Assembly (NCBI RefSeq): GCF_001806325.1
Contig: NZ_CP017580.1
Location: forward strand, 2,542,001 to 2,606,000
Origin: Curtobacterium sp. BH-2-1-1
Lineage (GTDB): Bacteria > Actinomycetota > Actinomycetes > Actinomycetales > Microbacteriaceae
Direction of reading: 5' to 3'
DNA: 64,000 nt
The notes below the pieces were generated by a model that saw only the letters and a list, made by a program, of their open reading frames with translations, was not told the origin of the DNA and searched no databases. Made by a program: the position numbers and the translations under genes. This document shows, piece by piece, positions 5,066 through 45,414 of the stretch. Each line of letters starts with the position of its first letter. The stretch's first letter is position 1.

Positions 5066-5101
5066 CTGGAGGCGCGGGTCGGGCCCGCACCGCGCCTCCA
5101 G
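5066..5101. repeat. Family-1 dispersed palindrome, copy 1
   Basis: Arms CTGGAGGCGCGG (5066-5077) and CCGCGCCTCCAG (5090-5101) flank a centre with GGGCCC. It sits in the divergent gap between the lipid kinase and serS, upstream of both. The same core recurs at six other places in the window plus one split copy. Confidence 0.9.
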
Positions 5102-5123
5102 TCCGTCCGCAACTGCGCCCCTT

Positions 5124-5129
5124 TAGGAT
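5124..5129 (+). promoter_or_regulatory. -10 element of serS
   Basis: TAGGAT lies 6 nt before the GTG start of serS, the spacing seen for several leaderless genes in the window. The expected transcription start therefore coincides with the start codon. Confidence 0.65.
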
Positions 5130-5135
5130 GGTGCG

Positions 5136-6401
5136 GTGATCGATCCCCAGCTGCTGCGTGACAACCCGGACGTCATCAAGGCCTCGCAGGAGGCGCGCGG
5201 CGCCTCCGTCGCCGTCGTCGACGAGGCCGTCGCCGCGGACGCGGCACGGCGGAGCGCGATCACCTCGTTCGAGTCCCTCCGGGCCGAGCAGAACGCCTTC
5301 GGCAAGACCGTCGCGAAGGCCCCGAAGGACGAGAAGGCCGCGCTCGTGCAGCAGGCCCAGGCGCTCGCCGCGAAGGTGAAGGAAGCGCAGGCGACCGTCA
5401 CCGCGGCCGAGGAGTCCTTCAACGCGGTGGTCCGGAGCATCCCGAACGTCGTCCTGCCCGACGTGCCGAAGGGCGGCGAGGACGACTTCGTCACGCTCCG
5501 CACCGTCGGCACGAAGCCGGAGTTCGACTTCGAGCCCAAGGACCACGCCGACCTCGGCGAGCACCTCGGCATCATCGACATCCCGCGCGGCGTGAAGGTC
5601 TCCGGCTCGCGGTTCTACTTCCTGCGCGGCCTCGGTGCCCGGCTCGAGATCGCCCTGATGTCGCTCGGCCTCGACCGTGCGATCGCCGCGGGCTTCGAGC
5701 CGCTCATCACCCCGACGCTCGTGCGCCCCGAGACCATGGCCGGCACGGGCTTCCTCGGCGAGCACGCGGCCGAGGTCTACCGGCTCGAGGCGGACGACCT
5801 CTACCTGACCGGCACGAGCGAGGTCGCCCTCGCCGGGTTCCACGCCGACGAGATCCTCTCCTTCGACGGTGGCGACGGCCTGCGGTACGCCGGCTGGTCG
5901 ACCTGCTACCGGCGCGAGGCGGGGTCGGCGGGCAAGGACAACCGCGGCATCCTGCGCGTGCACCAGTTCAACAAGCTCGAGATGTTCGCCTACGTCCACC
6001 CGGACCAGGCCGAGGCCGAGCACGCCAAACTCGTCGGGTACCAGGAGCAGATGCTGCAGGACCTCGGGCTGCACTACCGCGTGATCGACGTGGCGGGTGG
6101 CGACCTCGGCACGAGTGCGGCGCGCAAGTACGACATCGAGGCGTGGGTCCCGACGCAGGGCACCTTCCGCGAGCTCACGTCGACGTCGAACTGCACGACG
6201 TTCCAGGCTCGGCGCCTCGACATCCGGTACCGCACCGAGAGCGGGAAGACCGCGCCGGTCGCGACCCTGAACGGCACCCTCGCGACCACCCGGTGGATCG
6301 TCGCGATCCTCGAGACGCACCAGCAGGCCGACGGCTCGGTCGTCGTGCCCGAGGTCCTCCGTCCCTACCTGGGCGGCGTCGAGGTGATCGAACCCCGATG
6401 A
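5136..6401 (+). CDS. serS: Seryl-tRNA synthetase
   Basis: Charges tRNA-Ser with serine. The 421 residues match the family length. The N-terminal ~110 residues form the coiled-coil tRNA-binding arm (alanine-, lysine- and glutamate-rich). The class II catalytic core carries motif 1 (GARLEIALM region), [10 protein letters not shown], motif 2 around [12 protein letters not shown], and motif 3 as [15 protein letters not shown] near the C-terminus. Translation starts at GTG 5136. It overlaps the HAD gene by ATGA, and a cognate tRNA-Ser(UGA) lies 0.9 kb downstream. Confidence 0.97.
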
Positions 6402-7252
6402 GCACGCAGGGTCGGTTCGTCGACGGTTCGGCCGGTGCGGGTGCGCCGGCCCGGACGAAGCGCTGGTTGGTGGCGCTCGACATCGACGGCACCACCATGC
6501 GCGAGGACGGTGTCGTCACCGACACCGTGATCGCCGCGCTCCGCGATGCCGAGGCAGCCGGGCACGAGGTCATGCTCAGCACCGGTCGCAGCGAGGGCAT
6601 GACCGTCCCGCTGCTCGACACGCTCGGCATCCAGCCGAAGTACCTCGTCTGCGCGAACGGCGCCCTGACCCTGGGACGCCGGTCCGACGGTTCCTACGAG
6701 CGGGTGCACGTCGAGCAGTTCGACCCGAGCGAGGTCCTCCGGACGATCCACGGCGCCCTCGAGAACGCCGCGTTCGGCGTCGAGGACCAGACCGGGCACT
6801 TCCTGCTCTCCGGCAACTTCCCCGACGACACGATGACCGTTGCCGGTGAGCACGTCCCGTTCGAACGGCTGCTCGGCGTCGAGGCGACCCGTGTCGTCGT
6901 CATCTCGCCCGGCCACGACACCGAGGACTTCCTGCAGATCGTCGAGCGGATGGGGCTGCACAAGGTCTCGTACTCGGTGGGCTGGACGTCGTGGCTCGAC
7001 ATCGCACCCGAGGGTGTGACGAAGGCCACCGCGATGGAGCGGGTCCGTGAGCGGCTCGACATCCCGCGCTCCCGCGTCTTCGCCGCGGGGGACGGTCGGA
7101 ACGACATCGACATGCTCCGGTGGGCCTCGACCTCGGGGCGCGGCGTCGTCATGGGGCAGGCACCCGAGGACGTCGTGGACGCGGGCAACGAGCTCACGGG
7201 TGGCGTGACCGACGACGGCCTGGCGGCTGCGCTCGACTCCCTGCCGCGCTAG
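6398..7252 (+). CDS. HAD-superfamily Cof-type phosphatase
   Basis: A 284-residue HAD hydrolase of the Cof/IIB type, which dephosphorylates sugar phosphates or similar small molecules. Motif I is DIDGT (residues 28-32), motif II is the STGR region, a conserved Lys occurs in GVTKATAM, and motif IV is GDGRNDIDM with its acidic pair. The large cap lies between motifs II and III. The ATG at 6398 overlaps the serS stop. The first ~20 residues are an unconserved tail. Substrate unknown. Confidence 0.9.
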
Positions 7253-7304
7253 CCCGGTAGACTTCCCGGGACGCGATCACGTCTCGCCACGTGGTCGCGT
7301 CGCT

Positions 7305-7392
7305 GGAGGGTTGTCCGAGCGGCCGATGGAGCCTGTCTTGAAAACAGGTGGGCAGAGATGTCTCGTGGGTTCGAATCCCACACCCTCCGCCA
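7305..7392 (+). tRNA. tRNA-Ser(UGA)
   Basis: Acceptor strand GGAGGGT (7305-7311) pairs with ACCCTCC ending at 7388, with discriminator G at 7389. The anticodon stem CCTGT/ACAGG carries loop CTTGAAA with anticodon TGA. A long variable arm and GGTTCGAATCC T-arm are present. CCA at 7390-7392 is encoded, and its A is the first base of the next gene's ATG. TAGACT at about 7258-7263 is a likely -10. Confidence 0.95.
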
Positions 7393-7919
7393 TGGACACA
7401 CGCCTGCGCCTGATCCGCGTCGACGACGCCGCGACGCTCGCGGCCGTCGTCAGTGCGAGCGCCGACCACCTGCGGCCGTGGGAACCGACCCGTTCGCCCG
7501 CCTACTTCACCGAGGCGGGGCAGCACGACGTCATCGTGCAGGCCCTCGCGGCCGAGCGTGCCGGCACGTCCGTCCCGTTCGTGATCGAGTCGGTCGACGG
7601 CGAACTGCTCGGCCGGATCACGCTGAGCGGCATCACCCGCGGTGCCCTGCAGTCGTGTGCGATGGGGTACTGGATCCGCGCCGACCGGACCCGGCAGGGA
7701 CATGCCTCCCGGGCGGTCCGGGCGGCTGCGGCGCACGCGTTCGAGGTGCTGCGGCTCCACCGTGTCCAGGCGGAGACCCTGCCCGAGAACGTGGGCTCGC
7801 AGCGTGCACTGCAGGCAGCGGGGTTCACGCGCTACGGCCTGGCACCCGAGTACCTCAGGATCGCCGGGGCGTGGCGCGACCACGTCATGTTCCAGCTCCT
7901 CGCTCCGACCGACCGGTGA
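7392..7919 (+). CDS. GNAT-family N-acetyltransferase (RimJ-like)
   Basis: A 175-residue acetyl-CoA-dependent acetyltransferase. The N-terminus TRLRLIRVDDAATLAAVV matches the usual GNAT opening, and the acetyl-CoA loop region is RADRTRQGHASRAVRAAAAHAF, with VQAETLPENVGSQRALQAAGF downstream as in ribosomal-protein Ser/Ala acetyltransferases. The ATG at 7392 uses the last base of the encoded tRNA CCA, so the mature mRNA would begin at or next to the start codon after 3' processing of the tRNA. No Shine-Dalgarno site fits outside the tRNA. The substrate is unknown. Confidence 0.88.
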   Translation: MDTRLRLIRVDDAATLAAVVSASADHLRPWEPTRSPAYFTEAGQHDVIVQALAAERAGTSVPFVIESVDGELLGRITLSGITRGALQSCAMGYWIRADRTRQGHASRAVRAAAAHAFEVLRLHRVQAETLPENVGSQRALQAAGFTRYGLAPEYLRIAGAWRDHVMFQLLAPTDR

Positions 7920-7928
7920 GCCCCCGGT

Positions 7929-8639
7929 TCAGCTGACGAGCCCCGTCACCACGTCGTGCACCACCCGGGCGGCACGGGCGGCCGCATCGTCGAGGTGCTC
8001 CTTGAACTCGTCGCCGTCCGGCGCGCACAGGTCGCTGATGCACCGCACGGACACGAACGGCATGGCGTGGACGTGCGCGAACTGCGCGATCGCCGCCGAC
8101 TCCATGTCGACCGCCGCAACCGTGGGGAACGCCGTCCGGAGCAGACGCGCTCGACCCTCGGTGACGAAGATCTCGCTCGAGCCGATCGTGGCCGAGCGGA
8201 GGCGGTACCCGGCGTCCGAGGCGAGTGCCAGCTCGACGAGCCGGTCGTTGGGCTCGTACCCGGTGGGCATGCCCGGGACCTGGCCGAGCGCGTACCCGAA
8301 CGCCGTCGCGTCGGCGTTGAGGTTGACGTAGCGGTCCCCGACGACGACGTCGCCGATCTCGACGCCGTGCATCAGCCCACCGGCCGTCCCGACGCTGATC
8401 ACCGGGATGCCGGAGCCGAAGTCGTGGAAGGCGTGGGCGACCGCTGCCGTGGCGTTCGTGAACCCGATGCCGCTGCGGCGCACGGCTACCGTGGCGCCAC
8501 CGACGTCGAGCAGGTGGTGTTCGTCGTGGCCGCCGACCGGACCGTCGAGGATCGGGACACCGCCGAGGAGCCCGGCGAACGCGGACACCTCTTCGCTCAT
8601 GGCGGCGATGACGACCGCGATCGGGGGAGGGAGTTGCAC
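7929..8639 (-). CDS. mtnN: MTA/SAH nucleosidase (phosphorylase superfamily)
   Basis: Cleaves 5'-methylthioadenosine and S-adenosylhomocysteine to adenine and the thioribose. The 236-residue protein starts with PIAVVIAAMSEEV, the family opening with its acidic residues, then SGIGFTNA, SVGTAGGL, VDMESAA (substrate-binding Glu), and FVSVRCISD with the catalytic Asp. GTG at 8639 is chosen because it includes the first beta strand; ATG at 8600 would remove it. The gene ends 10 bp from the convergent acetyltransferase. A purine nucleoside phosphorylase of the same fold is the alternative. Confidence 0.85.
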   Translation of the reverse strand: MQLPPPIAVVIAAMSEEVSAFAGLLGGVPILDGPVGGHDEHHLLDVGGATVAVRRSGIGFTNATAAVAHAFHDFGSGIPVISVGTAGGLMHGVEIGDVVVGDRYVNLNADATAFGYALGQVPGMPTGYEPNDRLVELALASDAGYRLRSATIGSSEIFVTEGRARLLRTAFPTVAAVDMESAAIAQFAHVHAMPFVSVRCISDLCAPDGDEFKEHLDDAAARAARVVHDVVTGLVS

Positions 8640-8723
8640 TGATCGATGATCGCACGGGCCGCCGACCGTCGGGACACCGGGACGCGTACCGTGCACCGTG
8701 CGCGGGGAGATCCAGGGGGCGGT

Positions 8724-9284: not shown

Positions 9285-9360
9285 CCCCGGACGCGCGGGT
9301 GGGACCCGACTGGCTGCGATCGGCCGGCTCGCGGCGTCGTGCGCGTGTCGTCCTGCCGTC

Positions 9361-10772: not shown

Positions 10773-10775
10773 TGG

Positions 10776-10840: not shown

Positions 10841-10873
10841 GCGAGCAGGCGGGCTGGCGTGACCAGCGTCGGA

Positions 10874-10909
10874 CGGGAGGCGCGGGTCGGCCCCGCACCG
10901 CGCCTCCCG
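10874..10909. repeat. Family-1 dispersed palindrome, copy 2
   Basis: Arms CGGGAGGCGCGG (10874-10885) and CCGCGCCTCCCG (10898-10909), with the same 36-bp length as copy 1. A compensating change (CTGG to CGGG in one arm, CCAG to CCCG in the other) keeps the pairing. It lies between convergent HxlR and LacI genes. Confidence 0.88.
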
Positions 10910-10926
10910 GACCACAGGCGGGTGCG

Positions 10927-16791: not shown

Positions 16792-16809
16792 GCCGCCGTC
16801 GGTCGACCG

Positions 16810-16847
16810 ACTGGAGGCGCGGGTCGGGCCCGCACCGCGCCTCCAGT
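16810..16847. repeat. Family-1 dispersed palindrome, copy 3
   Basis: Arms ACTGGAGGCGCGG (16810-16822) and CCGCGCCTCCAGT (16835-16847) with the same GTCGGGCCCGCA centre as copy 1. It begins 19 bp after the binding-protein stop. Confidence 0.9.
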
Positions 16848-16880
16848 CCGCCCGTTGGGACGCGCACGCCGACGCGCGGA

Positions 16881-21096: not shown

Positions 21097-21123
21097 GCGA
21101 GCGGTCCGACGGTGACCACCCTC

Positions 21124-21165
21124 GGACTGGAGGCGCGGTGCGGGCCCGCACCGCGCCTCCAGTCC
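21124..21165. repeat. Family-1 dispersed palindrome, copy 4 (perfect 42-bp palindrome)
   Basis: Bases 21124-21144 and 21145-21165 are exact reverse complements with no loop, making a perfect 42-bp palindrome. It starts 27 bp after the fucosidase stop and ends 14 bp before the TetR start codon, so it may serve as both terminator and part of the TetR leader. Confidence 0.92.
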
Positions 21166-21179
21166 GTGACACTGGAACC

Positions 21180-22146: not shown

Positions 22147-22575
22147 TCAGCGGTCGTGGAGCTCGCGGTCGCGGAACCACTTCAGCAGCCAGGCCGCGCT
22201 CGTGCGGTCGAAGGACCGCGGGAAGTCGACGCCGTCGGTGAGGAACGGGCTGAAGCCCTCCTCGGCGGCGATGTCGGAGTCGTCGAGCGACCGGTAGGCC
22301 ATCGACCAGCCGTCGAACCGACGGCGTTCGATGTCCTCGCGCACGAGCGACTTCACCTCGCCGTGGCGGGGGTCGCGCGCGATCGCGGCGAACCGGTCGT
22401 CCACGCTCCACGCCGGGCCCTCGAGCAGCTGCATGAAGCGGCCGTCCTTCGCCAACAGGATGCCGGAGACCCCCAGCGCCTCGTTCCGGAGCCGCGACCC
22501 ACGCAGGAGTTCGGTCAGGGCGGCGTCGTCGAAGGGGGTGGCCGCCCGGCTCATGTAGACGATGGAGACGAGCAC
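22147..22575 (-). CDS. BLUF-domain blue-light photoreceptor
   Basis: A 142-residue standalone BLUF protein, which binds FAD and senses blue light. The flavin-pocket residues are Y7 (SIVYMS), N31 (LRNEALGVSG), Q49 (RFMQLLEG) and W90 (GWSMAY). Their spacing (24, 42 and 83 from the Tyr) equals that of AppA Y21/N45/Q63/W104. There is no output domain, so it must signal through a protein partner. GTG 22575 begins right at the first strand. Nothing in the neighbours shows the partner. Confidence 0.93.
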   Translation of the reverse strand: MLVSIVYMSRAATPFDDAALTELLRGSRLRNEALGVSGILLAKDGRFMQLLEGPAWSVDDRFAAIARDPRHGEVKSLVREDIERRRFDGWSMAYRSLDDSDIAAEEGFSPFLTDGVDFPRSFDRTSAAWLLKWFRDRELHDR

Positions 22576-25785: not shown

Positions 25786-25843
25786 GGCGCGGCGAGGCTG
25801 GAGGCGTGGTCGCGGAGGGTCCGTGACCCGGGAAGGGACCATC

Positions 25844-26944
25844 GTGTTCGTCGCCTGGCGCGACCTCCGGTTCGCTCGCGGCCGCTTCGTGCTCATCGGC
25901 TCCGTCGTCGCGCTCATCACCCTGCTCGTGGGGTTCCTCGCGGGCCTCACCGGCGGACTCGCCGCCCAGAACGTCTCGGCCGTGCTCGACCTGCCGGGTG
26001 ACCGACTGGTCCTGCAGCAACCGTCCGACGGGCAGCCGTCCTTCGGCGAGTCGACCATCGGCCAGGAGGCGCGGGTCGGCTGGCAGACGGCGGCCGGCGT
26101 CGACGAGGTGGTCCCGGTCGGGATCGTCCAGGGGCGGGCGACGTCGGGTCACGACGACGGGTCGGCGGTCGGGGTCGCCCTGTTCGGGCTGGCCGCCGAC
26201 CACGGCGGCTCGGCCGACGCGCGTGGCTCGGTCGCCTCGCTCGCGCCGACGCGGGACGACGAGGTCGGCCTGTCCTCCGGCGCGGCCGCCGACCTCGGGG
26301 TCGACGTCGGCGACCACGTGACGATCACGGGCACCACCTACCGGGTCGCCTCCGTCGGCGGCGACGCCTGGTACAGCCACACGCCGGTCCTCGCGATGAC
26401 CCCGGACGCCTGGTCCGCGGCCGATCGGCGGCTCGGCGGCGACGGCGACCCCACCGTCCTCGCGGTGAGCGGGTCGCCCGACTGGGACGCCGTCGCCACC
26501 GCGACCCACACGTCGGCCTCGTCGCACCTCGGCTCGCTCACGGCCCTCGAGACGTTCCGGTCGGAGGTCGGTTCGCTCGCCCTGATGATCGCGATGCTGT
26601 TCGGCGTCTCCGCCCTCGTCGTCGGTGCCTTCTTCACGGTGTGGACCATGCAGCGCGCGGGCGATGTCGCCGTCCTGAAGGCACTCGGTGCGAGTACCCG
26701 GTCGCTCGTCCGGGACGCCCTCGGCCAGGCGCTCGTCGTGCTCGTCGTCGGCATCGGCGTCGGGACCGCCGCGGTCGTGGGACTCGGGGCGCTCGCCGGC
26801 GGCGCGCTGCCGTTCCTGCTCAGCCCGCTCACCACGCTGGTCCCGGCGATCGCGATGGCGGCCCTCGGGCTCGCCGGAGCCGCGGTCGCCCTCCGCACCG
26901 TCACCGTGGCCGACCCCCTCACCGCACTCGGGAGCAACCGATGA
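25844..26944 (+). CDS. FtsX-like ABC transporter permease
   Basis: A 366-residue MacB/FtsX-type permease: one N-terminal helix (FVLIGSVVALITLLVGFLAG), an extracytoplasmic domain (about 40-240), then three helices with LKALGASTRSLVRDALGQAL, the usual coupling region. GTG 25844 follows AAGGGA by five bases; GTG 25823 with its own GGAGGG is an alternative. It likely exports or resists a membrane-active compound with the ATPase that follows. Confidence 0.88.
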   Translation: MFVAWRDLRFARGRFVLIGSVVALITLLVGFLAGLTGGLAAQNVSAVLDLPGDRLVLQQPSDGQPSFGESTIGQEARVGWQTAAGVDEVVPVGIVQGRATSGHDDGSAVGVALFGLAADHGGSADARGSVASLAPTRDDEVGLSSGAAADLGVDVGDHVTITGTTYRVASVGGDAWYSHTPVLAMTPDAWSAADRRLGGDGDPTVLAVSGSPDWDAVATATHTSASSHLGSLTALETFRSEVGSLALMIAMLFGVSALVVGAFFTVWTMQRAGDVAVLKALGASTRSLVRDALGQALVVLVVGIGVGTAAVVGLGALAGGALPFLLSPLTTLVPAIAMAALGLAGAAVALRTVTVADPLTALGSNR

Positions 26945-30117: not shown

Positions 30118-32130
30118 TCAGATTGTCCAGTCGTCCCGGAAGAGCGCTCCACCGCGGCGCGATCCCAGGTACGACCCGACCACCGCGACGCCGAGGTCGT
30201 CGTTCTCGGGCGCGACGACCTTGCCGTCCACCCGCTTCGCCATCGCGTCGATGAAGCGCGCCAGCCCCGGGTCGTCGCCGAGCCGGAAGAACGTCGTCTG
30301 CGCGCCCAGCCGTCCGGCGTTCTCGAGCTCCCGGACGGACAGCGCGATCGTGATCGGGTCCGGCGGGTACCCGAACCACACCTGGCCGTTCGGTTCGAGG
30401 TGGGAGGTGGGCTCGCCGTCGGTGACGATGAGCAGCACGGGCTGGGCGGTCGGGTGCTTCCGGAAGTGCCGGTTCGCGAGCAGCAGGGCGTGGTGGAGGT
30501 TGGTGCCCTTGTCCCACATCGCGTCGAGGCCGACGAGTTGCTCGATCTCCATCACCTCGGCTTCGCGGCCGAAGGCGATGAGCTGCAGGTCGTCGCCGCG
30601 GAACCGTGTGGAAACGAGGGTGTGGAGTGCCAGCGCGGTGCGCTTCATCGGCACCCACCGGTCCTCCATCGCCATCGAGAACGAGGTGTCGACGAGCAGG
30701 GCGACACAGGCCTGCGTCCGTGCCTCGGTCTCCTGCACCTCGACGTCGTCGATCTCCAGGCGGACGCCGGGGCCCATCCGTCCCGAGGCAGCCGTGCGGG
30801 TGAGCGCGTTCGTGATCGACCGGGTGACGTCCCACGGCTCGGTGTCGCCGTACTGCCACTGCCGGGTCGCACCGGAGGGTTCGCCGGACGCACCGGAGCG
30901 GCGGAGGTCTCGGGCACCCTGGCGGCCGGACATGCGCTCGGCGACGTCCCGGAGCAGGCTCTTCCCGAGCTGCCGCATCGCCTTCGGGGTGAGCCGGAGC
31001 TGCCCGTCGGCACCGCGGCGCATCGCACCGGAGTTGCGCAGGGCCTTCTCGAGCTGCTGCAGGGTCCTCGCGTCGACGACGGCGTCGTTCCCGAGCTGGC
31101 GGCCGAGGGCGTCGAGGTCGAGGTCGTCGAGGTCGGAGCCCGGTCCGGCCTGCGCGATCTGGTCGGCGAGGGCGTCGAGGTCGGCGATGTCCTGGAAGAC
31201 CCCGGTCCCGTCGCCGAGCCCGAGGCCCTGCTCGCCCTCCATCCGCTCGGAGCCGCCCCAGTCCTCGCCCGGCCGGAGCGAGCGGAGGGTGTCGTCGAGC
31301 TGGGCGAGCTGTCCCATCAGGTCGGGGGAGCCGAACGCCTGCTGGGCGAGGGCATCGAGTTCGTCGCGCTGCTCCTGGGTCATCGAGTTGCGCATGCGCT
31401 GCGCCGCGGCCGCCCGGGCAGCGAGGTCGTCGAGCAGTTCCTCGACGTTCTGCGGGTCCGACGGGAAGTACTGCCCGTGCTCGGCCATGAACGCGTCGAA
31501 CTGCTCCTGCGTGTCCGTGCCCGCACGGTGGTCCTCGAGCAGGGTGTTGAGGTCGCGCATCATCGCGGCGACGTCCTCGCGGTCCTGGTCGGTGGCACCC
31601 TCGAGCGCCTGCTTCATGCCGGCGAACCGCTGGTCGAGCACCTCACGGCCGAGCAGGTCCTTGATCTCCTCGTACTTCTGGCGCGCGGTCGGGCTCGTCC
31701 AGTCGTAGCCGCTCAGCTCCTGCACCGCGGTGGCGGGCGACGGCGACAGGCTGTCGAGCTGCATCTCGGCGAGGGCTCGGTCGCCGTCGTCGATCTCGGT
31801 GTCGCGGGCGAGTTGTCCGCGTTCCGCGAGCACGGCCTCGTCGAGCAGCTGCTTGACCTGCTGCAGGGTGCCGTCGAGGTTGTTCTTCGCCGTCAGCTCG
31901 CGCCGTCGCTCGGCCACGCGGCGGGCCAGGTCGTCGAGGCCGCGCTGGTCCTGACCGCCACGGCGCAGGTACTCCCGGATGGCGCGCTCGGGCGAGGTGC
32001 CGCCCATGACGTCCTCGCCGATGGCGTCGAGCGCCTCGGCCAGGTCGACCGGGGGAGCGAGCGGGTCCGGGCCGTCCTCGTACTTCCCGTAGCGCGCGTC
32101 CCGCGCCAGGCGTCGGTTCGCCCTAGCCAT
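30118..32130 (-). CDS. VWA-domain protein partnered with AAA ATPase
   Basis: A 670-residue cytoplasmic protein. Residues about 1-440 are charged and helical, rich in Gln, Glu, Asp and Arg with Asp/Leu-rich stretches, suggesting long helical bundles. The C-terminal von Willebrand A domain has an intact metal site: DTSFS near residue 480, GTNLHHA and VTDGEP. It overlaps the ATPase gene by 8 bp. The pair is like chelatase or MoxR/VWA machines in which the VWA subunit links the ATPase to a target. The target here is unknown. Confidence 0.85.
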   Translation of the reverse strand: MARANRRLARDARYGKYEDGPDPLAPPVDLAEALDAIGEDVMGGTSPERAIREYLRRGGQDQRGLDDLARRVAERRRELTAKNNLDGTLQQVKQLLDEAVLAERGQLARDTEIDDGDRALAEMQLDSLSPSPATAVQELSGYDWTSPTARQKYEEIKDLLGREVLDQRFAGMKQALEGATDQDREDVAAMMRDLNTLLEDHRAGTDTQEQFDAFMAEHGQYFPSDPQNVEELLDDLAARAAAAQRMRNSMTQEQRDELDALAQQAFGSPDLMGQLAQLDDTLRSLRPGEDWGGSERMEGEQGLGLGDGTGVFQDIADLDALADQIAQAGPGSDLDDLDLDALGRQLGNDAVVDARTLQQLEKALRNSGAMRRGADGQLRLTPKAMRQLGKSLLRDVAERMSGRQGARDLRRSGASGEPSGATRQWQYGDTEPWDVTRSITNALTRTAASGRMGPGVRLEIDDVEVQETEARTQACVALLVDTSFSMAMEDRWVPMKRTALALHTLVSTRFRGDDLQLIAFGREAEVMEIEQLVGLDAMWDKGTNLHHALLLANRHFRKHPTAQPVLLIVTDGEPTSHLEPNGQVWFGYPPDPITIALSVRELENAGRLGAQTTFFRLGDDPGLARFIDAMAKRVDGKVVAPENDDLGVAVVGSYLGSRRGGALFRDDWTI

Positions 32131-33508
32131 AGACGGCTTCGCCCCCGCCGGACTCCTTGCTGATCCGCCGGGCGAGGAAGAGCCCCTCGAGCGCGAGTTC
32201 GATGGCGCCGGCACGCTCGCCGTCGTCGGTCGCTCCGAGCCGTTCGCAGATCTGGTCGTACAGGTCGGACTCGCCGATCGACGGCAGGCCCTCGAGGAAG
32301 GCGCGGGCGCTGACCTGCTCACCCGTGGTCACCATCGTGCCCCCGTCGAGCGCCTCGACGAGGACCGCGAAGTCGAGCCCGCGGAAGCGCGCCCGGACGG
32401 TCTCGGCGGTCGCGGTCCGGAGCAGGTGCTCGAGCACCTCGTCGGCGCGGTCCTCCTCGCCGTTCTCGAACTCGATCTTCCCGCCGAGGACGTCGATCGC
32501 GGTCTCGAGGTCGATCGGTCGCGCGACCGCGTGCTCCTCGCCCTGCCGCGCAGCGCGGTGCACCGCGGCGGCGGAGATCGTCTCCGCGCCGGCGATCGCG
32601 AAGCGGGCGCTGACGCCGCTGCGCTGATCGACCGCACTCGATCCGCGCAGGGCACGCGTGAACCGGGCGAGGATCTCGACCAGCGCGTCCGGCACGTCGG
32701 CGGTGAGCCGCGCCTCCTGGCGGATCACGGCGATCTCGTCCTCGAGCTCGATCGGGTAGTGGGTGCGGATCTCGGCGCCGAAGCGGTCCTTCAACGGGGT
32801 GATGATCCGACCGCGGTTCGTGTAGTCCTCGGGGTTCGCGCTGGCGACCACGAGCACGTCGAGCGGCAGCCGGAGGACGTAGCCGCGGATCTGGACGTCG
32901 CGCTCCTCCATCACGTTGAGCATCGCGACCTGGATGCGCTCGGCGAGGTCGGGGAGCTCGTTGATGGCGACGATGCCGCGGTGGCCCCGGGGGACGAGGC
33001 CGAAGTGGATCGTCTCGGGGTCACCCAGGCTGCGGCCCTCGGCGACCTTCATCGGGTCGACGTCGCCGATGAGGTCCGCGACGCTCGTGTCCGGCGTCGC
33101 GAGCTTCTCGACGTAGCGGTCGTCGCGGTGCCGCCAGCTGATGGGCAGGGCGTCGCCGAGGTCCGCGGCCCGGCGGATGCTCGCGGTCGTGATCGGTTCG
33201 TAGGGGTGCTCGCCGAGTTCGGAGCCGGTGATGACGGGCGTCCACTCGTCGAGCAGGCCCTGCAGGGTGCGGAGGAGTCGGGTCTTGCCCTGTCCGCGCT
33301 CGCCGAGCAGGACGACGTCGTGCCCGGCGATCAGGGCGCGTTCGAGCTGCGGGACGACGGTGGTGGCGAAGCCGTGGAGGCCGGGCCAGGGGTCGCGGCC
33401 CTCGCGGAGGGCGCTGAGCAGGTTGTCGCGGATCTCGGCGCGGACCGTCTTCTGGAGGTGGCCAGAGGTGCGGAGCTCGCCGACCGTTCGGATGTCGGGT
33501 CGGGTCAC
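32123..33508 (-). CDS. AAA+ ATPase, magnesium-chelatase ChlI/MoxR-like
   Basis: A 461-residue ATPase. Walker A is GERGQGKT (near residue 70), Walker B VAINELPDL, and VASANPEDYTNRGRIITPLKDRFG holds sensor 1 and the arginine-finger region. The C-terminal helical lid runs from about residue 320. GTG 33508 follows GAAGAG. It is first in a two-gene operon with the VWA protein. It differs from the shorter MoxR at 45.5 kb and is closer to ChlI-type ATPases. The remodelled substrate is unknown. Confidence 0.87.
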   Translation of the reverse strand: MTRPDIRTVGELRTSGHLQKTVRAEIRDNLLSALREGRDPWPGLHGFATTVVPQLERALIAGHDVVLLGERGQGKTRLLRTLQGLLDEWTPVITGSELGEHPYEPITTASIRRAADLGDALPISWRHRDDRYVEKLATPDTSVADLIGDVDPMKVAEGRSLGDPETIHFGLVPRGHRGIVAINELPDLAERIQVAMLNVMEERDVQIRGYVLRLPLDVLVVASANPEDYTNRGRIITPLKDRFGAEIRTHYPIELEDEIAVIRQEARLTADVPDALVEILARFTRALRGSSAVDQRSGVSARFAIAGAETISAAAVHRAARQGEEHAVARPIDLETAIDVLGGKIEFENGEEDRADEVLEHLLRTATAETVRARFRGLDFAVLVEALDGGTMVTTGEQVSARAFLEGLPSIGESDLYDQICERLGATDDGERAGAIELALEGLFLARRISKESGGGEAVYG

Positions 33509-33530
33509 CTCTTCGACGTTACGCCGTTCG

Positions 33531-33572
33531 GGCCTGGAGGCGCGGTGCGGGCTGGCACCGCGCCTCCAGGCC
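33531..33572. repeat. Family-1 dispersed palindrome, copy 5
   Basis: Perfect 18-bp arms at 33531-33548 and 33555-33572 with a 6-nt loop. It starts 22 bp upstream of the ATPase start codon, inside the divergent gap, so it lies in a promoter region and not at a gene end. Confidence 0.92.
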
Positions 33573-33611
33573 ACCTGCTTGTGAGTTTTCATAGCAATTG
33601 CAATGATTGGT

Positions 33612-33720: not shown

Positions 33721-35178
33721 GTGAGCAGCACGACGAACGGGGCGATCAAGAGCCTGGTCCCCGCCAGGATGGACAGACTGCCGTGGACACGGTTCCACTG
33801 GAGTGTCGTGGTGGGACTCGGTGTCTCGTGGGTCCTCGACGGCCTCGAGATCCAGATCGTGTCGAACGCCGGGTTCCAGGCCGACCTGGACCTGTCGACG
33901 CAGCAGGTGACCTCGCTCGGCACCATCTACCTCGTCGGGCAGGTCGTCGGCGCGATCGTCTTCGGTCGGATGTCCGACCGGCTGGGTCGTCGGAAGCTCT
34001 TCATCCTCACGCTGGCCATCTACCTGATCGGCTCCGGCATCGCGGGGCTCGCGCAGGACTTCTGGTTCCTCGCGGCCTTCCGGTTCGTCGCCGGGCTCGG
34101 CATCGGCGGCGAGTACGCCGCGATCAACTCGGCGATCGACGAGCTCATCCCCGCGAAGTACCGCGGGCACGTCGACATCGCGATCAACGGCACCTACTGG
34201 GGCGGCGCGGCACTCGGCGCGTTCGCGAACATCTACCTGCTCGACACGGCCAACTTCGCCGAGAACATCGGCTGGCGCATCGGCTTCTTCCTCGGCCCGG
34301 TGCTCGGCATCGCGATCATCTTCCTGCGGCGGCACATCCCGGAGAGTCCGCGGTGGCTCATGACGCACGGACGCGAAGAGGAAGCCGAGGCGACGGTCAC
34401 GCAGATCGAGGAGTCGGTCGAGAAGTCCACCGGGCACCGGCTGCCGGAGGTCGACGAGTCCAAGGCGATGACCGTCACGCCGACGGAGAACGTGAAGTTC
34501 CGGACGATCGTGAAGGTGCTGTTCCGGCAGTACCCGACCCGGACCCTGGTCGGCGCGACCATGATGATCACGCAGGCGTTCCTCTACAACGCGATCTTCT
34601 TCACCTACGCCCTGGTGCTCACGAACTTCTTCGGCCTGAAGACCGCCGAGACGAGCGTGTACTTCTTCCCGTTCGCGATCGGCAACCTGCTCGGGCCGAT
34701 CATCCTCGGTCGGTTCTTCGACACCTGGGGTCGTCGGCAGATGATCTTCTCGACGTACCTGGTGTCCGGGCTCGTGCTCGCCACCTCGGCGTTCCTGTTC
34801 CAGGCCGACGCGATCACCGCTCCGGTGCAGGTCGTCTTCTGGTGCATCTCGTTCTTCTTCGCCTCGGCGGGTGCGTCCAGCGCCTACCTGACCGTGAGCG
34901 AGATCTTCCCGCTCGAGCTCCGGTCGCAGGCGATCTCGTACTTCTTCGCGCTGGCGCAGATCTTCGGTGCCGTCGCGCCGCTCATCTACGGGGCACTCAT
35001 CGGCGACGGGTCGTCCCGCGAGCCGCTGTTCTGGGGGTACCTGCTCGGGTCCGCGGTGATGATCGCGGGCGGTGTCGTGGCGCTGATCTTCGGCGTCGAC
35101 GCGGCCCGGAAGGGGCTCGAGGACGTCACACAACCCCTGTCGGTCCTGACCAAGGAGGCGGACGCGGCGCGGAAGTAG
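33721..35178 (+). CDS. MFS transporter (sugar/metabolite porter type)
   Basis: A 485-residue twelve-helix transporter. GRMSDRLGRRKLFI and RFFDTWGRRQMIF are the paired loop 2-3 and 8-9 signatures, and RFVAGLGIGGEYAAINSAIDE and PESPRWLMTHGREEEAEA match the sugar porter/organic acid group. GTG 33721 is chosen as the first start before the conserved body; the sequence further upstream is palindrome. Substrate unknown. A GntR gene follows. Confidence 0.88.
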   Translation: MSSTTNGAIKSLVPARMDRLPWTRFHWSVVVGLGVSWVLDGLEIQIVSNAGFQADLDLSTQQVTSLGTIYLVGQVVGAIVFGRMSDRLGRRKLFILTLAIYLIGSGIAGLAQDFWFLAAFRFVAGLGIGGEYAAINSAIDELIPAKYRGHVDIAINGTYWGGAALGAFANIYLLDTANFAENIGWRIGFFLGPVLGIAIIFLRRHIPESPRWLMTHGREEEAEATVTQIEESVEKSTGHRLPEVDESKAMTVTPTENVKFRTIVKVLFRQYPTRTLVGATMMITQAFLYNAIFFTYALVLTNFFGLKTAETSVYFFPFAIGNLLGPIILGRFFDTWGRRQMIFSTYLVSGLVLATSAFLFQADAITAPVQVVFWCISFFFASAGASSAYLTVSEIFPLELRSQAISYFFALAQIFGAVAPLIYGALIGDGSSREPLFWGYLLGSAVMIAGGVVALIFGVDAARKGLEDVTQPLSVLTKEADAARK

Positions 35179-35179
35179 T

Positions 35180-38144: not shown

Positions 38145-38234
38145 GGAGACGTCGCATAGTCCGGCCGAGTGCACCACCCTGCTAAGGTGGAGTCCCCTTT
38201 GAGGGGACCGAGGGTTCAAATCCCTCCGTCTCCG
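38145..38234 (+). tRNA. tRNA-Ser(GCU)
   Basis: Acceptor GGAGACG (38145-38151) pairs with CGTCTCC (38227-38233), discriminator G 38234. The anticodon stem CCACC/GGTGG encloses CTGCTAA with anticodon GCT. A long variable arm (GTCCCCTTTGAGGGGAC) marks a serine tRNA. CCA is not encoded. The T-arm is GGGTTCAAATCCC. Confidence 0.96.
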
Positions 38235-38240
38235 CGGCAC

Positions 38241-38331: not shown

Positions 38332-38375
38332 CGGACGGGAGGCACGGTGCCAGCCCGCACCGCGCCTCCCGTCCG
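38332..38375. repeat. Family-1 dispersed palindrome, copy 6
   Basis: Arms 38332-38350 and 38357-38375 match at 18 of 19 positions with a 6-nt loop; one arm has GGCACGG where others have GGCGCGG. It lies between the tRNA terminator and the MFS gene. Confidence 0.88.
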
Positions 38376-38403: not shown

Positions 38404-38458
38404 TCGTGAGCAGAAATGGTCGGGTGCGCGCACATGACCCGACCATTTCTGCTCACGA
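38404..38458. repeat. Perfect 22-bp inverted repeat
   Basis: Arms 38404-38425 and 38437-38458 match perfectly around an 11-nt loop. The core AGCAGAAATGGTCGGGT is AT-richer than its surroundings. It lies 31 bp past the 3' end of the convergent MFS gene and could terminate it. Confidence 0.93.
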
Positions 38459-39817: not shown

Positions 39818-40267
39818 ATGTCCGTCGACGACTCCTCCGTCGCCGTCCGCGCCCACGGCTGGCGCACGCTCGCGGCCCTGCACGGCCTCATCGAGACGCG
39901 GCTCGAGCGGGCGCTGCGCGCCGTCGACCTGTCGGTCGTCGAGTTCACGGTGCTCGACGCCCTCCGCCGCCAGGACGGCTTCCACATGCGCATGCAGCAG
40001 CTCGCCCGGGCGGCAGCGCTCAGCCCGAGTGCGACGACCCGGCTCGTGAACCGCCTGGAGGAGCGCGCCCTCCTCACCCGCGTGCTCTGCGCCGACGACC
40101 GCCGCGGGCTCTACACGGAGCTCACGCACGCGGGCCAACGGCTGCTCGACGAGGCCACGCCCGTGCACGCCGCCGCGCTCGAGGAAGCGCTCGCCGAGGC
40201 GCGCGAGGTCCCCGAGCTCGAGGAGCTCGCCGTCGCGGTCGACCGGCTCGAGGGTGCCACCGTCTGA
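39818..40267 (+). CDS. MarR-family transcriptional regulator
   Basis: A 149-residue MarR protein with LSVVEFTVLDALRRQDG, recognition helix ALSPSATTRLVNRLEERALL and wing CADDRRGLYTELTHAG. ATG 39818 follows AGGAGG. It is divergent from the exporter at 38490-39683, the classic regulator/efflux arrangement. Confidence 0.93.
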   Translation: MSVDDSSVAVRAHGWRTLAALHGLIETRLERALRAVDLSVVEFTVLDALRRQDGFHMRMQQLARAAALSPSATTRLVNRLEERALLTRVLCADDRRGLYTELTHAGQRLLDEATPVHAAALEEALAEAREVPELEELAVAVDRLEGATV

Positions 40268-40315
40268 GGTCCAGGAGGCGCGGCCCGACCCCGCCCCGCA
40301 CGCTACGGTGAGCGG

Positions 40316-41329: not shown

Positions 41330-41991
41330 AGCTCTTGCTGACCTCGGGAGGCGTCACCAACCCGACTATCCACGCCGCGCTCGTGTCGATGCTCGACAAG
41401 CCGGTCGAGGAGGCCAACGCCCTCGTCGTCCCCACGGCGCAGTGGGGGCATCCGATGTGCGGACCGGCCTCGGTCCGGGACCTCGTGGCCGGCGGTCCCG
41501 ACTCCCGCGCCTTCACCGGCCTCGGCTGGGCGTCGATCGGCGTGCTGGAGCTCACGGCGCTGCCGACGATCGAGCCCGAGCGGTGGCGGCGGTGGGTCAC
41601 GGGAGCCGACGTCCTGCTGGTCGACGGCGGGGATGCCACCTACCTCGCCCACTGGATGCGGACATCCGGGCTCGCGGACCTGCTGCCCTCGTTGCCCGAC
41701 ACGGTGTGGGTGGGCGTGAGCGCCGGCAGCATGGTCATGACGCCGCGCATCGGCGCGTCCTTCGTCGCGTGGCCGTCAGCGGTCGACGACGTGACGTTGG
41801 GAGTCGTCGACTTCTCGATCTTCCCGCACCTCGACGCGTTCCCGGAGAACACCCTCGAGAACGCCGAGCGGTGGGCGGCCGAGATCGGCGTTCCGACCGC
41901 CTACGCCATCGACGAGCAGACCGCCGTGGCGGTCGACGGTGGCTCGGTCCGGGTCGTCTCCGAGGGGCGCTGGGTGCAGCTCGCGCCGTGA
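41326..41991 (+). CDS. Peptidase S51 (dipeptidase E)-like protein
   Basis: A 221-residue cytoplasmic serine peptidase-fold protein. VDGGDATYLAHWM and WVGVSAGSMVMTPRIG hold the nucleophile elbow (Ser in GVSAGS), and FPHLDAFPENT the region expected for the His. It could cleave Asp-X dipeptides. GTG 41326 overlaps the glycosidase stop by GTGA, so it is coupled to it. Confidence 0.83.
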   Translation: MKLLLTSGGVTNPTIHAALVSMLDKPVEEANALVVPTAQWGHPMCGPASVRDLVAGGPDSRAFTGLGWASIGVLELTALPTIEPERWRRWVTGADVLLVDGGDATYLAHWMRTSGLADLLPSLPDTVWVGVSAGSMVMTPRIGASFVAWPSAVDDVTLGVVDFSIFPHLDAFPENTLENAERWAAEIGVPTAYAIDEQTAVAVDGGSVRVVSEGRWVQLAP

Positions 41992-42020
41992 CGGGATCGG
42001 CACCGACCGGCGGACGCCGG

Positions 42021-43019
42021 TCAGCGGGCGCGCGGGGGAGCGGTCGTCGACCGGACGACGAGCGACGGCGGCACGAGGACCCGGGTCGGCTCCGGCCGCT
42101 CGGCCGCACCGATCAGCTCGACGAGCCGGTCCGCCGCGAGTCGCCCGACCTCGTCGTTGTGCGGGTCCACCGTCGTCAGGCGCAGCAGGGGTGACGCGGC
42201 GAGCGGGGTCTCGTCGTTGCCCATGACCGACACGTCCTGCGGTACCCGGAGCCCGGCCTCGTGCACGGCGGCGATCGCGCCCATCGCCATGACGTCGTTC
42301 GCCGCGAACACCGCGGTCAGGTCCGGGTGGTCCTCCAGTGCGCGGACGGTGCCGCGGTAGCCGGTCTGCTCCGAGGTCGGTCCGTCGCTGTACACCAGTG
42401 GCTCGATGCCGGAGGCGACCATCCGGGCGACGGTGGCCTCGCGGCGGACGGCAGCCGGGCCTCCTGAGCCGGTGACGTGGGCGATGCGGCGGTGACCCAG
42501 GCCGACCAAGTGATCCGCGGCCAGGCGTCCGCCGGCGGCTTCGTCGGAGGCGACGACGTCGAGTCCTCCCGGGACGTCGGCGCGTGCGCCGGCGATGACG
42601 ACCGGGGTGTCCGCGGGGACCACGAGGTCGGGGAAGCCCTCGGCGGCGAGCACGACGCCGTCGACCCGGAGCGAGACGAGGTCGTCGAACGGGGAGGAGT
42701 CGAGGTGGGCGTTCGCGCGGGTGTCCGCGAGCGTGAGGCGCAGGCCGTGCGGGGAGAGCGCGTCACGGATGCCGTCGAGCATCGGGACGTACCAAGGGTT
42801 CCGGAAGTCGTCGACGACGACGCCGATCGTGCGCGTCCGCGTGCCGGCGAGGATCGCGGCGGCACGGTTGGGGCGGTAGCCGAGCTCGGCGGCCGCGGCG
42901 AGGACGGCTGCCCGGCGGGTGTCGGAGACGCCGGGGTCGTCGCGCATCACCATCGAGACGAGCGACTTCGAGACCCCGGCACGGGTCGCGACGTCGATGA
43001 TCGTCGGTGGTCGGGACAC
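42021..43019 (-). CDS. LacI-family regulator
   Basis: A 332-residue LacI protein. PTIIDVATRAGVSKSLVSMVMR is the helix-turn-helix, GYRPNRAAAILAGTR the hinge, and the effector domain ends VGRLAADRLVELI. It is divergent from the dehydrogenase/isomerase operon and very likely binds the 18-bp palindrome at 43070-43087 in the shared gap. Confidence 0.93.
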   Translation of the reverse strand: MSRPPTIIDVATRAGVSKSLVSMVMRDDPGVSDTRRAAVLAAAAELGYRPNRAAAILAGTRTRTIGVVVDDFRNPWYVPMLDGIRDALSPHGLRLTLADTRANAHLDSSPFDDLVSLRVDGVVLAAEGFPDLVVPADTPVVIAGARADVPGGLDVVASDEAAGGRLAADHLVGLGHRRIAHVTGSGGPAAVRREATVARMVASGIEPLVYSDGPTSEQTGYRGTVRALEDHPDLTAVFAANDVMAMGAIAAVHEAGLRVPQDVSVMGNDETPLAASPLLRLTTVDPHNDEVGRLAADRLVELIGAAERPEPTRVLVPPSLVVRSTTAPPRAR

Positions 43020-43027
43020 GCGGCTCC

Positions 43028-43087
43028 TTGACAGGACATGGGTGGGTGCGTCTACAGTCTACCGACGCTCTCTGGAACGTTCCAGAG
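43028..43087 (+). promoter_or_regulatory. Promoter with LacI operator for the dehydrogenase/isomerase operon
   Basis: TTGACA at 43028-43033 and TCTACA at 43051-43056 are separated by 17 bp. The perfect 18-bp palindrome CTCTGGAACGTTCCAGAG at 43070-43087 begins about where transcription should start, so a bound repressor would block it. Confidence 0.8.
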
Positions 43088-43115
43088 CCATCACCGACTT
43101 CTCGAGGGAGAGAAC

Positions 43116-44339
43116 ATGAGCGACAGCATCGGCGTCGCCGTCATCGGCGCAGGCATGGCCGGCAAGGCCCACATGGCCGCGTGGCGGAACGCACCGTCCC
43201 TGTTCGGTCACACGCTGCCGCCCGTCCGGCTCGTGTCGGTCGGCGACGTCTACGAACCGCTCGCGGCCGAGGCTGCGACGCGCTTCGGGTACGACCGGCA
43301 CGACACCGACTGGCGAGCGATCGCCGAGGCCGACGACATCGACGTGGTGAGCGTCGTCGTCGCGAACACGCTGCACCGCGAGATCGTCGAGGGGCTCCTC
43401 GCCGCCGGCAAGCACGTGCTGTGCGAGAAGCCGCTCTCGGACTCGCTCGACGATGCCCGCGCGATGGCGTCCGCCGCATCGCTCGCGGCCGGTCGTGGTC
43501 TCACCGCCCGCGTCGGCTTCACCTACCGCCGCGCTCCCGGCCTCGCTGCCATCAAGCAGCTCGTCGAGGACGGCACCCTCGGTCGCGTCCTGCACGTCTC
43601 CGCGCGCTACTGGACCGACTACGGCTCCTCGCCCGACGTCCCGTTCTCGTGGCGCTTCGCGGGGGCCCCGGGGACCGGCGCCCTCGCCGACGTCGGGTCG
43701 CACCTCGCGTACGTCGCCGAGTTCCTGGCCGGCGAGGTGCAGAGCGTCAACGGCGGCATGTTCACCACGGCCGTCACGAAGCGGCCGATCGCCGCCGGGT
43801 TCGCCCTCCGTGGCCAGGCCGTACCGTTGACCGGGGAGTTCGCCGACGTCGAGAACGACGACTACGCCACGTTCACCGCGCGCTTCGGCGACGGCTCGGT
43901 GGTCGGTTCGCTCGAGGTCTCCCGGGTCGCGACCTCGCACCCGAACGGCCTCGTCGTCGAGGTGTTCTGCGAGCACGGCGCCGCACGCTGGGACCAGGAG
44001 CGCGCATCCGAGATCGGACTCGCGCTGCAGTCCGACGGCTCCCGTCTCGGCGGCTACCGTCAGGTCGTCCTCGGCCCGGACCACCCCTACGTCGCCGGCG
44101 GCATGGCGATGGACGCTCCCGGTGTCGGCTGGGGCCAGAACCAGATGTTCGAGTACCAGGCGCGTGCCTTCCTCGACGAGGTCGTGGGCAACACGGCCGA
44201 CCCGCTGCCGGCGAACGCCACGTTCGACGACGGCGTCCACAACATGGAGATCCTCGACGCGGTGGCCCGGTCCGCCGCCGACGGAGGAGCAACCGTCGAC
44301 CTCACCGCAGCGTCCGTCACCGGAGGAGCACACGCATGA
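43116..44339 (+). CDS. Gfo/Idh/MocA-family sugar dehydrogenase
   Basis: A 407-residue NAD(P)-dependent dehydrogenase. VAVIGAGMAGKAHMAAW is the Rossmann start, HVLCEKPLSDSLDDA holds the catalytic-region EKP, and ADVGSHLAYVAEFL the conserved HxxD-like segment. ATG 43116 follows GGGAG. It overlaps the isomerase by ATGA. The pair would oxidise and isomerise a sugar or inositol derivative. Confidence 0.92.
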   Translation: MSDSIGVAVIGAGMAGKAHMAAWRNAPSLFGHTLPPVRLVSVGDVYEPLAAEAATRFGYDRHDTDWRAIAEADDIDVVSVVVANTLHREIVEGLLAAGKHVLCEKPLSDSLDDARAMASAASLAAGRGLTARVGFTYRRAPGLAAIKQLVEDGTLGRVLHVSARYWTDYGSSPDVPFSWRFAGAPGTGALADVGSHLAYVAEFLAGEVQSVNGGMFTTAVTKRPIAAGFALRGQAVPLTGEFADVENDDYATFTARFGDGSVVGSLEVSRVATSHPNGLVVEVFCEHGAARWDQERASEIGLALQSDGSRLGGYRQVVLGPDHPYVAGGMAMDAPGVGWGQNQMFEYQARAFLDEVVGNTADPLPANATFDDGVHNMEILDAVARSAADGGATVDLTAASVTGGAHA

Positions 44340-45340
44340 AGCTCGGTCTCTACAACGCGATCTTCCACGACCGCCCGCTCGCCGCGGCGCTCGAGGCCAT
44401 CGCGGGCAACGGCCTCACCGGCATCGAGCTGAACACCGGCGGGTTCCTGCCGCCGGTGCACGTGTCGAACGTCGACGAGATCCTCGACGACGACGCGGCG
44501 CGCGACGCCTTCCTCGCGCAGTTCGACGGGACCAACGTCTCGATCGCCGGCCTGAACTGCAACGGCAACCCGCTGCACCCGGACCCGGCGATCGGGCCGA
44601 AGCACGCGGAGGACGTCCGCCGCAGCATCCGGCTCGCGGCCCGTCTCGGCCAGGACCGGGTCGTGACGATGTCGGGCCTCCCCGCGGGGGAACCCGGCGG
44701 CACCCGGCCGAACTGGATCGTGAACGCCTGGAACTCCGCCGCGCTCGACGTGATCGAGTACCAGTGGAGCGTCGCGGTGCCGTTCTGGCAGGAGATCGAC
44801 GCCCTCGCCCGCGAGCACGGGGTCAAGGTCGCGCTCGAGCTGCACCCGCAGAACGTCGTCTTCAACCCGGCGACGATCCGCGAGCTCGTCGAGCGCGGCG
44901 GGCTGACCAACGTCGGCGTCGAACTCGACGCGTCGCACCTGTTCTGGCAGCAGATGGACCCGGTGGCGGTCGTCCGCGACCTCGGTCCGCTCGTGTTCCA
45001 CGCCGCCGCGAAGGACGTCCGGATCAACCCGCAGGCCGCGATCAACGGCGTGCTCGACAACTCGTTCCGTCGGCTCTCGCCGGACGAGCCGCGCACGAAC
45101 CTCGGCGGGGACGAGTGGGCGAACGAGTGGCCGAAGCCGTCCGCGTGGGACTTCGTCGCGCTCGGCAAGGGGCACGACGAGGCGTACTGGTCGGCGTTCC
45201 TCGAGGCCTTGCGCGAGGTGGACCCGGACATGTGGGTGAACATCGAGCACGAGGACACCGAGCTCGGGCGCGAGGAGGGCGTCGCCGTGGCGGCGCAGGT
45301 CCTGCTGGCCGCCGACGCGTCGCTGGCGGCTCGCGTCTGA
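44336..45340 (+). CDS. Sugar phosphate isomerase/epimerase (TIM barrel)
   Basis: A 334-residue xylose-isomerase-like barrel. LTGIELNTGGFLPP near the start, VALELHPQNVVFNP with a metal-binding Glu/His, VGVELDASHLFWQQMDP with Asp/His, and NIEHEDTELG with the last Glu give the metal site. Activity on a specific sugar is not known. It is coupled to the dehydrogenase. Confidence 0.92.
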   Translation: MKLGLYNAIFHDRPLAAALEAIAGNGLTGIELNTGGFLPPVHVSNVDEILDDDAARDAFLAQFDGTNVSIAGLNCNGNPLHPDPAIGPKHAEDVRRSIRLAARLGQDRVVTMSGLPAGEPGGTRPNWIVNAWNSAALDVIEYQWSVAVPFWQEIDALAREHGVKVALELHPQNVVFNPATIRELVERGGLTNVGVELDASHLFWQQMDPVAVVRDLGPLVFHAAAKDVRINPQAAINGVLDNSFRRLSPDEPRTNLGGDEWANEWPKPSAWDFVALGKGHDEAYWSAFLEALREVDPDMWVNIEHEDTELGREEGVAVAAQVLLAADASLAARV

Positions 45341-45354
45341 GTTGCTGCGGGATC

Positions 45355-45414
45355 CGGACTGGAGGCGCGGATCACGTGCGCTGATCGGCGCACGTGACCC
45401 GCGCCTCCAGTCCG
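45355..45414. repeat. Family-1 dispersed palindrome, copy 7 (long nested form)
   Basis: Outer arms (16 bp) at 45355-45370 and 45399-45414 are family 1. Inside, TCACGTGCGC and its complement (45372-45381, 45388-45397) extend the stem to about 27 bp with one mismatch around a 6-nt loop. The inner part differs from all other copies. Confidence 0.9.

Follow-up and report, generated by a model that had tools for sequence, protein, structure and literature searches.

A chromosome-wide 10-bp word of Curtobacterium, paired into gene-end hairpins, as a candidate DNA uptake sequence

Why should hairpins with one and the same arm recur in the gaps between genes of a Curtobacterium chromosome? The question arises from a 64,000-bp stretch of Curtobacterium sp. 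BH-2-1-1 (the window; positions 2,542,001-2,606,000 of a single-contig genome of 3,795,948 bp, here G000), in which an earlier note had reported seven hairpins with the arm CTGGAGGCGCGG, spanning 5 to 45.4 kb. These had been described as intergenic palindromes behaving like a repetitive extragenic palindrome (REP) or bacterial interspersed mosaic element (BIME), of the kind moved in other bacteria by RAYT transposases. We found all seven, the positions given there being arm starts at most 4 bp off the 12-base core, and by our own gene calls every one of them is intergenic. Each is an inverted pair GGAGGCGCGG...CCGCGCCTCC, save that the left arm of one is GGAGGCACGG (Table 1). Five lie at gene ends, and the other two occupy divergent promoter gaps. 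What had been missed is that the arm also occurs alone: among 20 exact cores in the window, 7 have no partner, and 4 of these lie in called genes. The unit is a dispersed 10-bp word, not a palindromic transposon. Our account, held with moderate confidence, is that GGAGGCGCGG marks 'self' DNA throughout the chromosome, evenly on both strands, in Curtobacterium and in a second Microbacteriaceae genus (g35), most likely as an uptake sequence whose inverted pairs form gene-end hairpins.

The word is abundant in a handful of genomes. Counted on both strands, with a reversed control in brackets, it occurs 967 (92) times in G000, 688 (107) times in G031 and 673 (118) times in G105, and the g35 genomes G035 and G110 hold 1378 (148) and 936 (106) copies. 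Another 114 of the 120 Microbacteriaceae genomes counted have 0-208 copies, the highest count of 208 standing beside a control of 202, with small excesses such as 17 vs 5. When 10-mers are measured against their one-mismatch neighbours, GGAGGCGCGG ranks first of all in an 864-kb sample of G000 (40 spread 20-kb stretches plus the window, about a quarter of the genome) and again in an unbiased 400-kb sample of G035. Under a 2-mismatch rule, 104 copies in the G000 sample are unpaired, 63 of them in called genes (calls from our own script trained on this sequence, not from annotation; 86% coding), compared with a mean of 9.3 and a maximum of 84 for 200 shuffled words. Of the 165 copies examined in G035, 12 are paired; the unpaired remainder divides into 109 within genes and 44 outside them. 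The 14-mer form in which single copies typically occur is found 100 times in G000, 69 in G031 and 30 in G035, and 0-7 times in the other 57 of 60 genomes.

The genic copies exceed what the encoded proteins call for. Against an expectation built from peptide plus codon usage, G035 has 109 genic copies vs 12.2 (Poisson P 1e-63) and G000 has 70 vs 22.1 (P 4e-16); all six strand and frame placements exceed expectation, and 12 control words fell at 0.1-2.4 times theirs. Codon usage acting through LEARL-type peptides is ruled out as the cause by this null and by the variant counts, and the genic excess is one at the DNA level. Among unpaired GGAGGC[N]CGG variants, the counts are G 85, C 12, A 16 and T 7 in G000, and G 45, C 1, A 1 and T 1 in g35 loci, which were fetched around hairpins. 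At the few loci compared, genic copies differ from their orthologues by substitution in gap-free alignments; the intergenic orthologue alignments L239, L240, L231 and L234 contain small gaps. Orientation is balanced, with 495 forward and 472 reverse copies across G000, and sampled singles show no consistent skew in eight 0.5-Mb bins, the bins being small and origin and terminus not located.

As sampled on three megaplasmid stretches, the word is scarce in foreign DNA. In G327, whose second replicon is the Curtobacterium pusillum plasmid CP018784.1, 200 kb of chromosome carry 29 copies of GGAGGCGCGG and 19 of GGAGGCACGG, whereas 200 kb of the plasmid carry 2 and 0; three control words are alike on the two (1, 4 and 3 vs 3, 4 and 4). 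By rank, GGAGGCGCGG comes 3rd on this chromosome, where three loci of the set were picked for synteny, and 115,372nd on the second replicon. In 100-kb stretches from two further Curtobacterium megaplasmids, 2 and 0 copies were counted. The word also has clade variants: in 18 of the 40 Curtobacterium genomes the C variant GGAGGCCCGG stands at fivefold its control or more, with up to 346 copies, and in G000 it lies below control (44 vs 51). In G303, the matches listed for GGAGGCCCGG include close inverted pairs as well as singles.

Inverted pairs of the word are numerous well beyond the window. The search for further copies that the earlier note had proposed gave 214 exact matches to GGAGGCGCGG-N2..30-CCGCGCCTCC genome-wide and 0 for the reversed pattern; with up to two mismatches, the 864-kb sample holds 64 pairs, vs 1 and 1 for two control motifs. 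Across 299 Microbacteriaceae genomes, the exact pair occurs in 7 of 7 of the same genus (5-214 copies, with 5 in G163 and 11 in G295), in 6 of 6 of g35 (22-63), and once each in 5 of 286 others. Searched among named genomes, the 32-bp form is present in at least 120 stretches, and among the matches listed 80 of 80 are Curtobacterium records; IMG/VR (2.9 million contigs), consulted on a possible viral origin, holds 25 stretches with the pair.

These pairs favour gene 3' ends. Of the 44 exact pairs in the sample, convergent and tandem gaps hold 20 each, divergent gaps 2 (both of them window hairpins) and called genes 2, the available gaps of 40 bp or more being convergent in 70 cases, tandem in 245 and divergent in 107; convergent gaps hold 48% of the intergenic pairs (20 of 42). 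In g35, DNA fetched around such pairs contains 31 exact ones: 13 in convergent gaps, 12 in tandem gaps, 1 in a divergent gap and 5 within called genes. The REP-like abundance of intergenic palindromes and their 3'-end bias are thus borne out (42 of the 44 outside called genes), but the intergenic habit is that of the hairpin and does not extend to the unpaired half-site, which is mostly genic. The earlier note's ground for refutation, that copies be no rarer within genes than between them, applies to the half-site (63 of 104 genic) and not to the hairpin (2 of 44). Where a stop codon lies within 45 bp, the core is 16-21 bp away from it on 34 of 61 sides, and others cluster at 2-9 bp. By arithmetic from these distances, the stem with its paired 6-bp extension usually begins ~10-15 nt past the stop codon, about where the footprint of a terminating ribosome ends. 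A GC-rich hairpin past the stop codon is a feature of intrinsic terminators, and the stems are strong (mean -51 vs -30 kcal/mol over 70 nt); the U-tract, another such feature, is missing, with a T-run in 1 of 112 flanks. Gene ends followed by a gap of 35 bp or more number 395; the hairpin is present at 65 of them, a U-tract hairpin, crudely defined, at 13, and both at 0. Most simply, the pairs would be bidirectional 3'-end hairpins that stop or protect transcripts without a U-tract.

Pairing within the stem is kept as the sequence drifts. Among 43 copies from this genome, 37 of them distinct, 92% of the 20-pair stem is paired, compared with 38-46% for slid structures. The earlier claim that the arms change in concert stands in part: cells changed on both sides number 38 vs 16.8 in shuffles, a value reached by 0 of 500, but the effect is not universal, and two other measures are weaker. 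Further pair types, 16 vs 13.1, were matched by 23 of 500 shuffles, and pairs with such a double change, 7 vs 5.8, by 98 of 500, which is unremarkable. The copies compared here are paralogues, and copying may inflate the matched changes. A covariance model built from the copies was run on the 864-kb sample, and a whole-genome run scored only 150 candidates, so that we draw no total from it. At the relatives' loci, core position 6 of 54 pairs is G-C in 33, A-T in 10, C-G in 8 and unpaired in 3, so that 51 are paired vs 25.6 under independence.

Relatives often retain the hairpin in the orthologous gap with changes in both arms, as in compensation, but conservation is uneven across sites. Presence was scored at up to 3 mismatches among readable relatives; a second anchor region, matched in 6 of 40 genomes, was left out of the comparison. 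By this rule the hairpin at 5062-5105 is present in 7 of 12 relatives and absent as a ~72-bp block from 5 of 12; that at 10870-10913 is present in 7 of 12, with a diverged form visible by eye in 4 more; that at 16807-16850 in 0 of 3; and that at 21123-21166 in 3 of 3. The sites in loci L189 and L162 have the hairpin in 9 of 10, 8 of 10, 9 of 10, 0 of 4, 10 of 10 and 0 of 1 relatives.

What kind of signal has these properties? Described uptake sequences are placed in the Neisseriaceae and Pasteurellaceae (PMC7811141, as far as the source was available). The DNA uptake sequence (DUS) of Neisseriaceae, for example GCCGTCTGAA, is likewise a 10-bp word with hundreds to thousands of copies in and outside genes, with species dialects and numerous inverted pairs tied to terminators (parts of PMC3630211, PMC6370729 and PMC2346458). 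The uptake signal sequence (USS) of Pasteurellaceae similarly has a short core that is common in genes and whose inverted pairs are terminator hairpins (in the part of PMC1852404 available). The Curtobacterium motif resembles these systems in its word length and copy number, its balanced orientation, its single copies in genes and pairs at gene ends, its scarcity on plasmids and its dialects. It differs from the DUS in sequence and in the phylum of its hosts, in having many pairs per genome (214 exact among 967 words), in having no identified ComP-like receptor (none was sought), and in being known here from sequence features, not from uptake preference; it differs from the USS in sequence and in that its paired hairpins lack a T-tail. 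The best reading is therefore worded as an uptake-sequence-like motif; membership of the DUS class, of which preferential uptake is the defining feature, is not claimed.

Under this reading, a competence machinery comprising a Tad-type pilus, ComEA and ComEC would recognize GGAGGCGCGG as an uptake sequence. Copies arising by point substitution, genic and intergenic alike, would keep being seeded by uptake bias and homologous recombination; where two came to lie head to head just past stop codons, they could fold into a hairpin, which may then have been retained as a bidirectional gene-end element that forms or protects transcript 3' ends without a U-tract. The genome encodes plausible parts: a cluster leuS / comEA-like / comEC-like / holA, in which Pfam domains and the ComEC N-terminal model score over their cut-offs, and a TadA ATPase over its own. 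In another actinobacterium, Micrococcus luteus, transformation makes use of Tad/Flp pili together with ComEA and ComEC (PMC6370729, in part), and two other Microbacteriaceae, whose family membership we checked, are described as naturally transformable in the available part of PMC11577799. In the portions of the literature that our search reached, no uptake sequence for an actinobacterium or other Gram-positive turned up.

A broader proposition, on which we are evenly divided, is that Actinobacteria evolved a DUS of their own, in which GGAGGCGCGG and its variants GGAGGCCCGG and GGAGGCACGG would mark self DNA for Tad/ComEA/ComEC transformation in Curtobacterium and g35, with inverted pairs co-opted as gene-end hairpins independently of Neisseria and Haemophilus. 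If true, uptake sequences would have arisen once more, independently, in a phylum that lacks the Gram-negative outer membrane, and this would test why they evolve; it would bear on what reads them in Actinobacteria and on why inverted pairs land at gene ends, and could make natural transformation usable in hard-to-engineer Microbacteriaceae. Even with another reader, a 10-bp word that recurs 670-1380 times in a genome and is favoured in genes is an unexplained chromosome-wide signal.

Several results weigh against the uptake-sequence reading. The ComEA model and the full-length ComEC model score under their NCBIfam cut-offs. Competence genes do not explain the distribution of the word: ComEC, which 58 of 60 family genomes possess, is not discriminating, whereas the word abounds in only 2 of the 85 genera sampled. 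Elsewhere in Curtobacterium, small samples from syntenic loci place the word only 13th-97th; several of these genomes abound in the C variant. G055 (L293-L296), from a third genus, has a mild excess of 399 vs 142, yet the word ranks 477 there in 80 kb, and we set it aside as a third user. Flanks differ between single copies and hairpin arms, and spacing is no more even than random (coefficient of variation 0.91 vs 0.97, sd 0.08). At 3 of 9 reference sites no readable relative has the hairpin (3, 4 and 1 relatives), and the ~72-bp block difference in the 5008-5135 gap is not explained by substitution. The gene-end role, for its part, does not fit the two divergent-gap hairpins.

The strongest alternative is a dispersed motif with another reader, such as a nucleoid-organizing or segregation protein or a Chi-like recombination signal, gene-end pairs being a by-product or a second use. 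Its chromosome-wide spread, its DNA-level character, its rarity on the sampled megaplasmids and the failure of competence genes to track the word would all suit this alternative. Chi and KOPS (FtsK orienting polar sequence) motifs are skewed in orientation along the chromosome, and no such skew is seen here in the small bins used. Moreover, we know of no nucleoid, segregation or Chi-like motif with gene-end inverted pairs and clade variants. Both are described for uptake sequences (available parts of PMC1852404 and PMC3630211). We regard another reader as possible but rather unlikely.

Less probable still, and to our minds improbable, is that the hairpins are solely a family of terminators or 3'-end stabilizers that share a sequence, with unpaired copies as decayed or nascent half-hairpins. 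The regular stop distances, the convergent placement, the strong stems and the lack of a U-tract hairpin at any of the 65 hairpin gene ends accord with such a role, and some of the 41 unpaired intergenic copies in the sample do resemble decayed pairs. The stems also recall the U-lacking (I-shaped) terminators or Rho-end hairpins of high-GC Actinobacteria, strong GC stems past the stop without a U-tract; U-lacking transcript ends are described in Streptomyces clavuligerus (PMC8269248, in part). Those, however, form a structure class, whereas in Curtobacterium one sequence recurs in hundreds of copies. Left unexplained are genic copies in six placements far over expectation, G035 with 153 of 165 copies unpaired, and 2 of 7 window hairpins in divergent gaps.

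A mobile palindrome of REP/BIME or miniature inverted-repeat transposable element (MITE) type, moved by RAYT or another transposase, would account for the high copy number, the intergenic hairpins and the ~72-bp block (present in 7 relatives, absent from 5), but we consider it very improbable, since a search for PF01797 (Y1_Tnp) that detects it in 5 of 14 control genomes, E. coli among them, gives 0 of 40 for Curtobacterium (this search did not extend to other transposases), genic copies are gap-free substitutions relative to orthologues, and a core letter change across many genomes, in pairs and singles alike, is unexpected from one copied element. The RAYT-borne REP of the earlier note is ruled out by the first two of these, the second resting on a handful of loci; its intergenic palindromes, 3'-end bias and covariation remain, attached to a dispersed word. 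REP/BIME elements, CGTC-tagged REPs among them, are likewise hundreds of gene-end intergenic palindromes; the CGTC type has CGTC at the stem base and lacks a known dedicated transposase (PMC3733652). A CGTC beside the Curtobacterium stem resembles theirs, but it sits within the paired stem on both sides, and the arm occurs alone in genes.

Table 1. Inverted pairs, unpaired cores and flanking genes in the window (window coordinates)
Feature	Position	Core pair	Strand	Context
Inverted pair, 44 bp with paired flanks	5062..5105	5068-5099	.	divergent gap
Diacylglycerol-kinase-family gene	3937-5007		-	flanks 5062-5105 hairpin
Seryl-tRNA synthetase gene	5136-6401		+	flanks 5062-5105 hairpin
Inverted pair	10870..10913	10876-10907	.	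convergent gap, HxlR-type / LacI-type regulator genes
Inverted pair	16807..16850	16813-16844	.	convergent gap, 21 bp past solute-binding-protein gene stop codon
Inverted pair	21123..21166	21129-21160	.	tandem gap, alpha-L-fucosidase gene / TetR-type gene
Inverted pair	33530..33573	33536-33567	.	divergent gap, AAA-ATPase gene (32123-33508, -) / sugar-transporter gene (33808-35178, +)
Inverted pair, left arm A-variant GGAGGCACGG	38332..38375	38338-38369	.	downstream of tRNA-Ser (38145-38235)
Inverted pair, long form 60 bp	45355..45414	45361-45408	.	tandem gap, core 20 bp past stop codon
Unpaired core GGAGGCGCGG	982..991		-	within called gene 152-1624 (+)
Unpaired core	26065..26074		+	within FtsX-like permease gene (25823-26944, +)
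Unpaired core	32708..32717		-	within AAA-ATPase gene (32123-33508, -)
Unpaired core	40274..40283		+	intergenic, directly past stop codon of 39818-40267 (+)
Unpaired core	53057..53066		+	within called gene 52065-53651 (+)
Unpaired core	56412..56421		-	intergenic
Unpaired core	56478..56487		+	intergenic

An Rfam scan of the window gave three tRNAs and nothing else. The window also holds other structured repeats. A second repeated palindrome, GAGCAGAAATGGTCGGGT...ACCCGACCATTTCTGCTC, lies at 38404-38458; its A- and T-rich stem bases are like those of a bidirectional terminator, and 5 of its 6 copies in the 864-kb sample are in convergent gaps and 1 in a tandem gap. Long inverted repeats at 50206-50278 and 3685-3749 (28/26 nt arms, 92-93% complementary) are near gene boundaries and unrelated to GGAGGCGCGG. 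At 56434-56467, in a convergent gap, a perfect 16-bp hairpin followed by TTTCT looks like a conventional terminator. Finally, a BLUF blue-light sensor gene at 22147-22575 adjoins an MFS transporter gene and a two-component pair.

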